Source: Chloroflexota bacterium (GTDB lineage Bacteria > Chloroflexota > UBA6077 > FW602-bin22). From it: DNA of 64,000 nucleotides. The notes beneath the pieces were generated by a model. It was not told the origin of the DNA. It searched no databases and was given only the letters and a program-made list of their open reading frames with translations. Made by a program: the position numbers and the translations under genes. The stretch lies in contig VGOZ01000002.1 in NCBI GenBank assembly GCA_016875715.1, positions 1 through 64,000 on the forward strand, written 5' to 3'. Of the stretch, positions 4,531-37,142 are shown piece after piece. The stretch's first letter is position 1; every line of letters begins with the position of its first letter.

Positions 4531-5676
4531 CTACTTCTCGACGATGAGCACCGTCACCATGCCGAACATCCCGGTGGGTGTCTCGGCGTGGGAGAGGATG
4601 TGGCAGTGGAATGCCCAGATGCCCGTTTCATCCGGTTCGACGATCGCGTTTCATCGCTCGCCGGGGGCGATATTCAGCGTGTCGCACAGCCATGGCGGCT
4701 GCGGATAGCCGTCCTTGGCGATGACCTGCTGCGGGAACCCGTGCAGGTGCATCGGATGAATCATCGACCCCTCGTTCATGTACCGGATCAGGATCTTCTC
4801 GCCGACCTTCGCGACCAGCGGCTGGGTCGCCGGGAAACTCTTGCCATTCAGGGTGAAGCCGTGGGGCCCGTCGTTGAGGATCATCAGGTGCTCGCGATCG
4901 ACCTTCGGCATCAGGGCGGGATCCTTCGGCAGCACGATGAACGCGCCGAGGAGGCCGCTCGGGACCTGGACCGAGGAGTTGTGGTGCGAGTGGTACATGT
5001 GGCTGCCGAAGAGCCTTGCGACGAACTCGTAGGTGAAGGTGTCACCCGGCTTGATCGGCGGCTGGGTGATGAAGGGAACCCCGTCCATCTTGTTCGGCGT
5101 TCGCTGGCCGTGGAAGTGGATCGCGGTCGACTCGTCCAGCTCGTTCTTGATGATGACGCGGACGAGGTCGCCCTCGGTGACGCGGATCTCCGGACCAGGG
5201 ACGGTGCCGTTGTAGGCCATGGCGTCGACGCTCTTGCCCGCCTCGATCTCCCACTTCACCTTCTTCGCGGTGATCTCGAAGACCTTGGCGTTGCCGTCCA
5301 TCCGGAAGGGGGGTCGCCCGTTCCCCTGCGCGGCGGTCTTCTGGGGGAACTTCTTGATGCCATCTTCGTGGTGCTTGTCCATCTCGTTCGCTTTGGTGAG
5401 CGCCGAGATCGCCGCGCCTCCGGCGGTGGGGGTATGGGCGGTCGCGGCGTGGGTCGGTGCCAGTGCGGCGGCCGGCTTCGCGGCCGCTGGCGCGGGGGCG
5501 ATGGCTGGTGCGATGGGAGCGGCCGGCGGACCCACGTCCTGCACCGCCGGCAGGCGCGAGCCCCTCCGAGTTCTGGCCGGCCCGGTGACGCAGCCAGACG
5601 CGACCGCGCCGGTGGTCAGTCCCAGGAGCGACACGAGCGCACGGCGCGAGACAAGATGGCGAAGACCCATGACCAT
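4531..5676 (-). pseudogene. Multicopper oxidase (laccase-like lipoprotein) interrupted by in-frame TGA
   Basis: ORF 4651..5676 has HFHG, HSHH and HPMHLHG copper motifs and stops at 4651-4653 (TGA); same frame continues NAIVEPDETGIWAFHCHILSHAETPTGMFGMVTVLIVEK to TAG at 4531. Confidence 0.8.
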
Positions 5677-15371: not shown

Positions 15372-15600
15372 GTCTCTTCTCCTTGCGTGCGATCCAGGAG
15401 TGCGCCAAGCCGATCGAGCCGCGCGTTCAGCATCGCCTGGTAGCGAGCGATCCAGGTCATCTCGTCGTCGAGGCGGCGCAGACCCAGGCGCGCCGTCCGC
15501 ACGCGCCCGGCCTTCTCCGTCGCGACGAGTCCGGCATCCTCCAGGATCTGGACGTGCCTCTTGACGCCCGTCAGCGTCGTGGCGCAGCGCGACGTGGCAC
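15368..15600 (-). pseudogene. 5'-truncated ArsR-family regulator
   Basis: LTGVKRHVQILEDAGLVATEKAGRVRTARLG...RLGALLDRTQGEET is the C-terminal part of an AHSA1-associated ArsR; N-terminal helices not found upstream; overlaps AHSA1 start (ATGA). Confidence 0.55.
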
Positions 15601-15639
15601 TAACGCCCGTGGTGCAGCGAGCGCTGTACCATCGACCCG

Positions 15640-16872
15640 ATGCGGGTCGCGGTGATCGGGGCCGGTGTGGTCGGCGCGTCGATCGCGTACCGACTCCAGG
15701 CCGGCGGCGCACAGGTGACGCTCATCGATGCCGCCGGGCCGGCGGAGGAGACCACCGCGCGCAGTTCGGCGTGGCTCAACGGCAACGACAAACCACCGCT
15801 GCACTACCAGCAATTGAACGCCGACGGGATCGAGGCGCACCGGCGGCTGGGGCGGGATCTCGGCACGGCACAGTGGCTCCACGAGAGCGGGTGCGTGATG
15901 TTCGAGGCGGAGCAAGCAATGCCCGTTCACGGCGTGGGGCCCGATCGTCTCGCCGATCGGGTCGCGCGCCTCGCCGCTTCCGGGTACCACGCCGAACTGA
16001 TCGATCGCGCGCAGGCCCGAGAACTGGAGCCGACAGTCGACTTCTCCCGCGCCGCCACGCTGGCGTGGTTCGCACGCGAGTGCTGGGCGGATGGTCCCCT
16101 CCTCGTGCGGACGCTGGTCGAGGCCGGTGAGGCGCGCGGCATGGTGACGCGGTTCCACACGGTCGTCTACTCCCTGCAGTCCGAAACCTCGGGTGCCACG
16201 ATGATCCTCCTGCCGGTCGAGCCATCCCGCGGCGCGTGGCCGCGCGCACGGGCGGGCGAGAGCGCCGTGGACGCGATGGGAGATGAGCGCTTCCATGGCG
16301 AGGGCGAACTCTGGGCGTTCGACCGCGTCGTCGTCGCGGCGGGCCGGTTCACCGATCGGGTCGCGGCGCGCGCCGGAGTGCGGGTTCCGCTCGCGCCGAC
16401 GTATGGCCTGCTCGCCGCCACCACCCCGTTCGCCGATCGACCTCGCCGCGTCGTGTACTGCCCGAACGTTCACTTCCGGCCCGAGCCCGGGGGTGGCCTC
16501 CTGCTCCAGGATGACTCGCTGGACCTGACCGTCGGCGCCGCGACACCCGAGTCGCCCCCGCCGCCGGGGTGCGAAGAACTGCTGGCGCGGGCGCGCGCGT
16601 ACGTTCCCGCACTGGCGGACGCAAGCATCGCCTCTGCCCACATCGGTACGCGGCCGATGCCGGCCGACGGGTACCCGATCGTGGGCAACGCGGGATGTCC
16701 CAAATGGCTGACCATCGCGGTAACGCATAGCGGCATGACGCTCGGCCCGCTCCTCGGCGAACTGGTCAGCCGCGAGGTCCTCAGCGGTGCGCCCGAGGAA
16801 CGGCTCGCGCCGTACCGGCTGACGCGCTTCGCGGCCGCGGGCGTGGGTCGGGGATCGCAACGTGATGGGTGA
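15640..16872 (+). CDS. FAD-dependent oxidoreductase (DadA/glycine oxidase-like)
   Basis: 410 aa; MRVAVIGAGVVGASIAYRLQAGGAQVTLID Rossmann motif. Confidence 0.9.
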   Translation: MRVAVIGAGVVGASIAYRLQAGGAQVTLIDAAGPAEETTARSSAWLNGNDKPPLHYQQLNADGIEAHRRLGRDLGTAQWLHESGCVMFEAEQAMPVHGVGPDRLADRVARLAASGYHAELIDRAQARELEPTVDFSRAATLAWFARECWADGPLLVRTLVEAGEARGMVTRFHTVVYSLQSETSGATMILLPVEPSRGAWPRARAGESAVDAMGDERFHGEGELWAFDRVVVAAGRFTDRVAARAGVRVPLAPTYGLLAATTPFADRPRRVVYCPNVHFRPEPGGGLLLQDDSLDLTVGAATPESPPPPGCEELLARARAYVPALADASIASAHIGTRPMPADGYPIVGNAGCPKWLTIAVTHSGMTLGPLLGELVSREVLSGAPEERLAPYRLTRFAAAGVGRGSQRDG

Positions 16873-16899
16873 GTCGTCTCGAACCGAATCAGCCCCGCG

Positions 16900-17955
16900 A
16901 TGAGTGCCGTTCTCGCGCTGGTCCTCCCCGGAGCTGCAGCGTTCGTCTGCCTGCTGTTCGCCGCGCTGGTGTTCGAGCAGTTCCGCCTGCGCCGCCGAGC
17001 GTTCCAGGTACTCTGGGCGCTCGGCCTGCTCTGGTACGGAATCGGCGCGGGGACAGAGTTCGTCGGCGCGGCGTTCGGGTGGTCCGAGCCGATCTACCGG
17101 CTCTGGTATCTGTTCGGCGCGATCCTCACCGCGGCGTACCTCGGCGCGGGGACGGTCACGCTCCTCGCGCGCACCGGGTTCGGCTACATCGCCGCGCTCG
17201 GCCTGATCGTGGGCGGCCTGTTCGCGCTGCTCAGTCAACAGCGTCTGGTACGCGAGGGCACGCCGGCCGATTCCGCAGCCGTGTACGGGACGCTCATGCT
17301 CGCGGTCGCCGCCGGCGAGGTCCTCATCTATGTCACGCTGCGGCACCGTCACCTCGTTGGCCACGTCACGATCGGCATCCTTGCCGCGGCCACTTTCGTC
17401 GCGGCGTGGATGGCGCTCACGGCGCCGGTCGCCCCGCCCGGCTACGCACTCGATCCCTACCACGTCCCGGTCGGGTCGGCCTTCGACCCGAATGTGCGGG
17501 TACTGACCGGGCCGTTCAACATCGCTGGGGCGCTCTGCCTCGTCGGCGGCGCGATCTACTCGGCGTACGTCTACATGCCGAAGCGGAAGATCCTGCGCGC
17601 GCGCCGACTCCCGCCAATCGCGGCGCAGGTGTACGGGTTCGCGACCGTGCTCGTGAACCTCGTCGCGTCCATCCCGTCCGCATGGGGGGCGGCACGCGCG
17701 GGCGCGGTGCATTCGCGGGTGCCCGCGACGCTCCTCATCGCCGTCGGCGGCTTCATTCCCAGTATCACCAGCGGCCTGAACCGGTTCGGCCTCACCTGGG
17801 GCTTCTTCCTCGGCGAACTGCTCGGCGTGCTCTTCATCTTCGCGGGATTCCTCGTCAGCGAGGAGGTATTCCGCGACCGGCGCGTCTCTCTGGGCTCGCT
17901 GGTCCTCTGGCGCGGGTCGGGGTCCCTCGGCGCGCCGTCCGCGCCGCGCCACTGA
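16900..17955 (+). CDS. Hypothetical polytopic membrane protein
   Basis: 351 aa; multiple hydrophobic segments across the length. Confidence 0.65.
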   Translation: MSAVLALVLPGAAAFVCLLFAALVFEQFRLRRRAFQVLWALGLLWYGIGAGTEFVGAAFGWSEPIYRLWYLFGAILTAAYLGAGTVTLLARTGFGYIAALGLIVGGLFALLSQQRLVREGTPADSAAVYGTLMLAVAAGEVLIYVTLRHRHLVGHVTIGILAAATFVAAWMALTAPVAPPGYALDPYHVPVGSAFDPNVRVLTGPFNIAGALCLVGGAIYSAYVYMPKRKILRARRLPPIAAQVYGFATVLVNLVASIPSAWGAARAGAVHSRVPATLLIAVGGFIPSITSGLNRFGLTWGFFLGELLGVLFIFAGFLVSEEVFRDRRVSLGSLVLWRGSGSLGAPSAPRH

Positions 17956-35645: not shown

Positions 35646-37142
35646 ATGGCAACGATCACCCGTCCCCCGGTCGAGCCCGGCGCGCCCTCCGGTGGACCCG
35701 GTAAGCGAGGCGGCATCTCCGTCGGTCCGCTGCTCGCATTTGTCGGTGTCATCGCGATCCTGCTCATGGCCGCGATGGTGGCGATGAACTACATGCTCCT
35801 CAGCGGCCGGGGCGCAGCCGGGCAGGTCGCCGTGGCCGCGCCGACCACGAAGGTGGGTCCGTCGGCCATCTCAGTCGTTGCTACTGAGTTCAAGTTCACG
35901 CCTGCTGAAGTGACGATCCCCGGGCCGGGCGATCTGACGGCCACGATCGACAACAAGGGTCTCATCGAGCACGACCTGGTGATCGAGGGGATCGATGGGC
36001 GCGTGCTCGCGGCCGGTGGCGCGAAAGCCAGTGGAGTCTTCAAGCTCGCGAAGAACGGCGTCTACAACTTCATCTGCACGATCCCTGGCCACAAGGAGGC
36101 CGGTATGGTGGGTCGGCTGGTTGTGGGCACGCCGGAGCAGACCGCCGCCAAGCCAGATCAGATCGCCTATGGCCCTGGACCGGCCGCAGTGGTCCAGCCC
36201 CCCGTGAGCCTGAAGCCCGCGGACGCCGCCGCGAAGCCGCTGCCGCTCCCTCAGGTCGCAGCGCCAGTCAACCGCACCGCTCCTGCGAACGTGAACGTCA
36301 CAATCGAGACGCAGGAGATCACCGCGAAACTGGCCGATGGCGTCACCTACACGCTCTGGACCTTCGGGGGCACGGTGCCGGGTCCGATGGTCCGCGTGCG
36401 CCAGGGCGATACCGTCACCATGACCCTGAAGAACAACGCCTCCAGCAAGGTGACCCACTCGATCGACTTCCACTCGGCGACCGGTCCCGGTGGCGGGGCA
36501 AAGGTGACCCAGGTGCCGCCGGGTCAGGAGGCAACGTTCTCGTTCAAGGCTCTCAACCCCGGCGTCTACGTCTACCACTGTGCCACGCCGATGGTCGCGC
36601 ATCACATCGCGAATGGGATGTACGGCCTGATGATCGTCGAGCCGCCCGGCGGCTATCCAAAGGTCGATCGCGAGTTCTACGTGATGCAGGGTGAGTTCTA
36701 CCTCGCCGGAAAGCGGGGCCAGGAGGGGCACCACGAGTTCTCGATGGAGAAGATGCTCAATGAGGAGCCGGACTACGCGCTGTTCAACGGCAGCGTCGGT
36801 GCGTTGACCAACGGTGCGATGAAGGCGCGCGTCGGCGAGACCGTGCGTATCTTCTTCGGCGTCGGCGGGCCGAACCTCACGTCCAGTTTTCACGTCATCG
36901 GCGAGATCTTCGATCGGGTCTATCCCGAGGGTGCGAGCGAGTTCATGACCAACGTACAGACGACGCTCGTGCCGACCGGAGGCAGCGCGGTCGTCGATTT
37001 CAAACTGGAGGTGCCCGGCAACTACGTGCTCGTCGACCACAGTCTTGGCCGCCTGGAAAAGGGTCTGGCCGGCATCCTGGAGGTCGAGGGGCCGGCGAAT
37101 CCGGAGGTCTTCAACCCGATCAACCCCTTGCCGAAGCCCTGA
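35646..37142 (+). CDS. nirK: Copper-containing nitrite reductase with N-terminal cupredoxin domain
   Basis: 498 aa; N-terminal cupredoxin ([15 protein letters not shown]) then [44 protein letters not shown] copper ligands. Confidence 0.9.

Follow-up and report, generated by a model that had tools for sequence, protein, structure and literature searches.

A premature TGA, probably a recent nonsense mutation, in a type B two-domain laccase-type multicopper oxidase gene of an uncultured Chloroflexota bacterium

An in-frame UGA may be a nonsense codon, a selenocysteine (Sec) codon, a reassigned codon or a site of read-through, and a gene interrupted by one in a genome with Sec machinery offers a worked case for separating these four readings. 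The window, a 64,000-nt stretch of DNA from an uncultured Chloroflexota bacterium, contains such a gene. Translation, Pfam matches and a structural model identify a two-domain multicopper oxidase (MCO) open reading frame of 341 codons on the minus strand (4651-5676). Its C-terminal end reads ...LCDTLNIAPGER*, the first stop being a TGA at codon 342 (4653-4651) that is defined by the translation, the homologue codons and the model. Followed from 5676 to 4459, the frame translates as ...NIAPGER*NAIVEPDETGIWAFHCHILSHAETPTGMFGMVTVLIVEK*. A sequence-only reading of this DNA had reported that the TGA cuts the oxidase, leaving the strand unstated, and that the frame continues for 40 codons with C-terminal MCO sequence. 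We confirm the cut and the content of the continuation; its length, however, is 39 sense codons (4534-4650, minus strand), followed by a TAG at 4533-4531 that represents the ancestral gene end, as homologue ends coincide with it or lie very near. A stop-free run of 39 codons at 68.5% GC has a chance probability of about 0.44, so the openness of the tail frame by itself proves nothing. The content of the tail, in contrast, is beyond chance: with read-through the frame gains an HCH...H...GM block, the Pfam Cu-oxidase_2 score rises from 56 bits at the stop to 90 bits, and 16 conserved columns beyond the stop are all kept, which bears out the earlier description of the tail as conserved. Third-position GC is 0.89 in the body of the gene and 0.87 in the tail. 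Reading the sequence by eye, we found no in-frame ATG, GTG or TTG between the TGA and the copper motif, which rules out an internal restart for the tail.

The N-terminus of the protein, MVMGLRHLVSRRALVSLLGLTTGAVASGC, resembles a Tat signal and includes a lipobox-like GAVASGC; both identities are putative. It is followed by a low-complexity linker (about residues 30-95), a first cupredoxin domain (about 125-250) and most of a second. Matches to Cu-oxidase_3 and Cu-oxidase_2 were obtained from Pfam, and no NCBIfam equivalog matched at its cut-off. The presence of two cupredoxin domains is indicated by Pfam, by the strand pattern and by PDB matches of the model, with domain 2 complete only in the read-through frame. 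Domain 1 contains the motifs HFHG and HSHH, with a Ser in the place of the T1 Cys; when the stop is read through, the motifs of domain 2 are HPMHLHG and HCHILSH...GM. We take the T1 ligands to be H307, C358, H363 and probably M370, and the HxH pairs to serve the trinuclear cluster. H357, C358, H359, H363 and M370 show no variation among the 83 aligned homologues, and all five lie 3′ of the stop, so the sequence-only reading was right that ligands of the T1 and trinuclear sites are lost. A T1 Cys-His-Met set in domain 2, with none in domain 1, is thus present in the read-through frame and missing from the 341-aa product. On these motifs the read-through frame appears to have the type B arrangement of two-domain MCOs, in which the T1 site is in domain 2 and which is defined as a homotrimer with the trinuclear cluster at the subunit interface (PMC13151041). 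Known type B enzymes share its Cu-oxidase_3 and Cu-oxidase_2 domains and all of these motifs, HSHH with Ser included, whereas the product encoded in the window stops at residue 341, short of the T1-defining HCH...H...M block. The closest solved structures are the two-domain laccases 2zwn and 3g5w; 2zwn is the best sequence match (E 2e-43) and is among the best fold matches to the model (35% identity, rmsd 2.1 Å). Both of these laccases, however, have the HCH in domain 1 (YHCHVN), a type C arrangement opposite to that of the family to which the window MCO belongs. AlphaFold modelled both domains of the read-through frame with high confidence, blocks from residue 91 onward mostly scoring 90 or more. 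Residue 342 falls inside the strand 340-346 and is followed by strands 352-358 and 374-380; in this model the stop cuts into a beta strand and would strip the last strands from domain 2.

To place the stop in its family, we scanned bacterial and archaeal species genomes for homologues, found partly through short query peptides, and obtained 80 loci in Chloroflexota and Gemmatimonadota; within the phylum, 36 of the 61 genomes examined had matches, the genome of the window included. Residue 342 is W in 39, Y in 24 and F in 14 of 83 aligned homologues (77/83), and the codons are TGG (39), TAC/TAT (33), TTC/TTT (15) and a few others. None of about 100 matches covering this position has a stop there; this is the outcome of the orthologue comparison that had been proposed. 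Furthermore, identity reaches 97% or more in 82 columns of the 83-homologue alignment, and all 82 are kept in the window MCO, the 16 beyond the stop among them. These columns comprise about 194 non-synonymous sites, of which none has been hit, limiting neutral drift since the loss to less than about 1.5% per site (95% level), with the caveat that query peptides had helped to retrieve the homologues. The copy does have one peculiarity, a one-codon in-frame deletion next to P328 (4693-4695, minus strand), 14 codons upstream of the TGA, where it reads YPQP-PWLCD in place of YPQPxPWxCD; the deleted position is filled in at least 90% of homologues and in a remnant of the gene in a sister genome. 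No intact nearer orthologue was found among 13 genomes of the order that were searched, and the best full-length relatives, from other Chloroflexota groups and from Gemmatimonadota, have about 61-68% identity over the aligned part. The stop is therefore confined to this lineage, while homologues elsewhere are intact, the pattern expected of a nonsense-allele pseudogene.

The single other genome of the same family that was compared, G001, retains about 80 alignable codons of the oxidase at C36:6449-6715, on a contig of 109 kb; they correspond to residues 294-372 of the window MCO. This remnant has a TAG at the position of W329 in the window and a TGT at residue 342. The sequence-only reading had proposed that the TGA derived from TGG by one transition; this is plausible, TGG being the commonest codon in homologues, but the TGT of the sister remnant leaves it unproven. 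Nothing homologous to the MCO was found upstream of the remnant, and the window DNA matched 20 kb of the sister contig only in the remnant itself, so the two regions are not syntenic. A Tat-signal-like piece resembling residues 1-78, a weak and low-complexity match, lies about 140 bases downstream. In the coordinates of L018, the stretch of C36 that holds them, the C-terminal piece is at 1525-1764 and the Tat-signal-like N-terminal piece at 1902-2126; they have the same orientation and reversed order, and this order suggests a rearrangement. Over 77 codons, few enough for caution and with dS near saturation, the window and the remnant differ by a dN of 0.098 and a dS of 1.09. Before the position of the TGA the values are 0.119 and 1.36 (dN/dS 0.09), and after it 0.067 and 0.79 (dN/dS 0.085). 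Similar ratios on both sides imply that, over most of the period since the lineages split, constraint on the tail matched that on the body; together with the retention of all 82 invariant residues, they indicate that the stop is recent, one of the options that had been put forward. A degenerate tail in close relatives would have spoken against the sequence-only reading, and on this point the result is mixed: in the sole close relative the tail motif is well preserved, but most of the gene has gone. Both known members of the family have decayed, by different stops, which suggests that the oxidase may be dispensable there.

How the UGA is decoded was assessed from the translation machinery of the genome. 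Release factor RF2 was found above its cut-off and TGA terminates 35 of the 50 genes called in the window; TGA is thus a normal stop in this genome. The tRNA-Trp (CCA) has a normal anticodon stem of 5 bp (GCGGT/ACCGC), so the read-through mechanism described for tRNA-Trp variants with a 4-bp stem (PMC13092985) is absent here. RF2, the TGA-ended genes and the unaltered tRNA-Trp rule out reassignment of UGA to Trp. None of 46 tRNA matches was a suppressor tRNA, and the only stop-reading tRNA found besides them was tRNA-Sec; a suppressor or an unusual tRNA-Trp is likewise ruled out. Insertion of Sec at the MCO UGA gains some plausibility from the machinery itself, since SelB and a tRNA-Sec with anticodon UCA both score above their cut-offs and are apparently used, and from the Cys at the aligned position of the sister remnant. 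The Sec-related loci of genome G000 (SelB, tRNA-Sec and formate dehydrogenase; L119, L127, L148) are at C5:61559-62761, C3:409-501 and C21:15868. The formate dehydrogenase has an in-frame TGA (ENQARI*HSATV) and served as positive control: 18 nt past the codon is the loop of a GUUCCC-GGUCU-GGGAAC hairpin of -7.9 kcal/mol, consistent with the bacterial SECIS rules of a hairpin 16-37 nt after the UGA, a G in the loop and a stable stem (PMC13188914). After the MCO TGA, by contrast, no hairpin satisfied these rules at the required energy, the best in range reaching -4.2 kcal/mol; under the same loose rule, some such hairpin also occurs in 87 of the 91 homologues in which the codon is a sense codon, and folding energy is no better than that of shuffled sequences (z -0.45). 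The MCO thus resembles bacterial selenoproteins in that its frame contains a TGA and its genome encodes Sec machinery, and differs from them in having no SECIS element, no Cys in functional homologues and no redox-active role for the position: functional homologues carry an aromatic, non-ligand residue at 342, and among close relatives Cys occurs only in the sister pseudogene remnant. Given the SECIS test and its control, we regard Sec at this codon as effectively ruled out despite the machinery. Leaky read-through by near-cognate tRNA-Trp would yield a little full-length enzyme, with the stop in effect dimming the output. The predominance of Trp at residue 342 in homologues and the undecayed tail would suit it, as would the argument of Belinky et al. 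2021 (PMC7918605) that bacterial read-through of in-frame stops is frequent. Nevertheless, no homologue shares the stop, RF2 is present and the tRNA-Trp stem has 5 bp rather than the 4 bp of the variants in PMC13092985. The read-through option that the sequence-only reading had raised is improbable in light of RF2, the normal tRNA-Trp, the lack of a suppressor tRNA among those found and the lack of a SECIS element, and it is scarcely to be expected that UGA read-through, with Trp or another residue, reaches a useful level and sets the amount of active oxidase in a gene neither dead nor misassembled.

A product of 341 residues might itself function, for instance as a copper-binding cupredoxin, and domain 1 with its histidines is indeed complete; yet the predicted position of the stop within a beta strand, the loss of the last strands of domain 2 and the absence of any similarly shortened homologue in the set make this reading highly improbable. 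More weight attaches to an error of sequencing, assembly or consensus calling, or to an allele of a minority strain that entered the consensus, in which case the population would possess an intact gene for an ordinary 381-aa oxidase. The assembly comprises 171 contigs and is 94% complete with 5.5% contamination; every other invariant residue is intact and constraint is alike on both sides of the stop. Near-perfect preservation is predicted both by a recent real mutation and by a single wrong base. Sampled through one large family, the internal-stop rate of the assembly is low, as 53 of 54 ABC_tran matches have no internal stop and the exception is weak and probably spurious. In addition, the same copy carries the codon deletion that is unusual for the family, and the sister lineage lost the gene. 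Both observations fit real loss and tilt the balance towards it, and we consider an error or a minority allele rather unlikely; we infer that the TGA base is real in the organism's DNA. The explanation that we favor, with a probability of roughly 0.63, is that the gene for a type B two-domain laccase-type MCO of this uncultured Chloroflexota bacterium has recently acquired a nonsense mutation. RF2 would terminate translation at the UGA, and is presumed to do so efficiently. Missing from the product would be the Cys, His and Met of the T1 site and two type-3 His, and the second cupredoxin barrel would be short of its final strands; such a protein should neither fold properly nor accept electrons. 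The gene would then be an incipient pseudogene or, alternatively, a null allele that segregates within the population sampled. The short-lived in-frame stops of bacteria described by Belinky et al. 2021 (PMC7918605) likewise lie in constrained genes with little decay around them, although the stop in the window occurs in one genome only and is not shared among species.

These data suggest that one Chloroflexota family has lost a laccase-type enzyme more than once, and the 341-codon ORF should not be annotated as an active oxidase. In other respects this is an ordinary matter of gene decay or assembly, and the TGA gives no grounds for proposing a novel mode of decoding. Elsewhere in the genome, no close and intact copy of the oxidase was found. 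The window does contain another cupredoxin gene, a copper nitrite reductase with an extra N-terminal cupredoxin domain (35646-37142, plus strand; TIGR02376 above the NCBIfam cut-off). A divergent two-domain cupredoxin protein related to the MCO and to NirK is encoded at C39:27547-28572 of G000 (L116); its last motif is HAH in place of HCH, a substitution common to several of its relatives (L021, L022, L023). Finally, a 793-codon ORF at 15571-17952 (minus strand) has atypical GC at the three codon positions (0.87/0.54/0.72) and no Pfam match, and may be a shadow frame cast by real genes that lie in a different frame or on the other strand.
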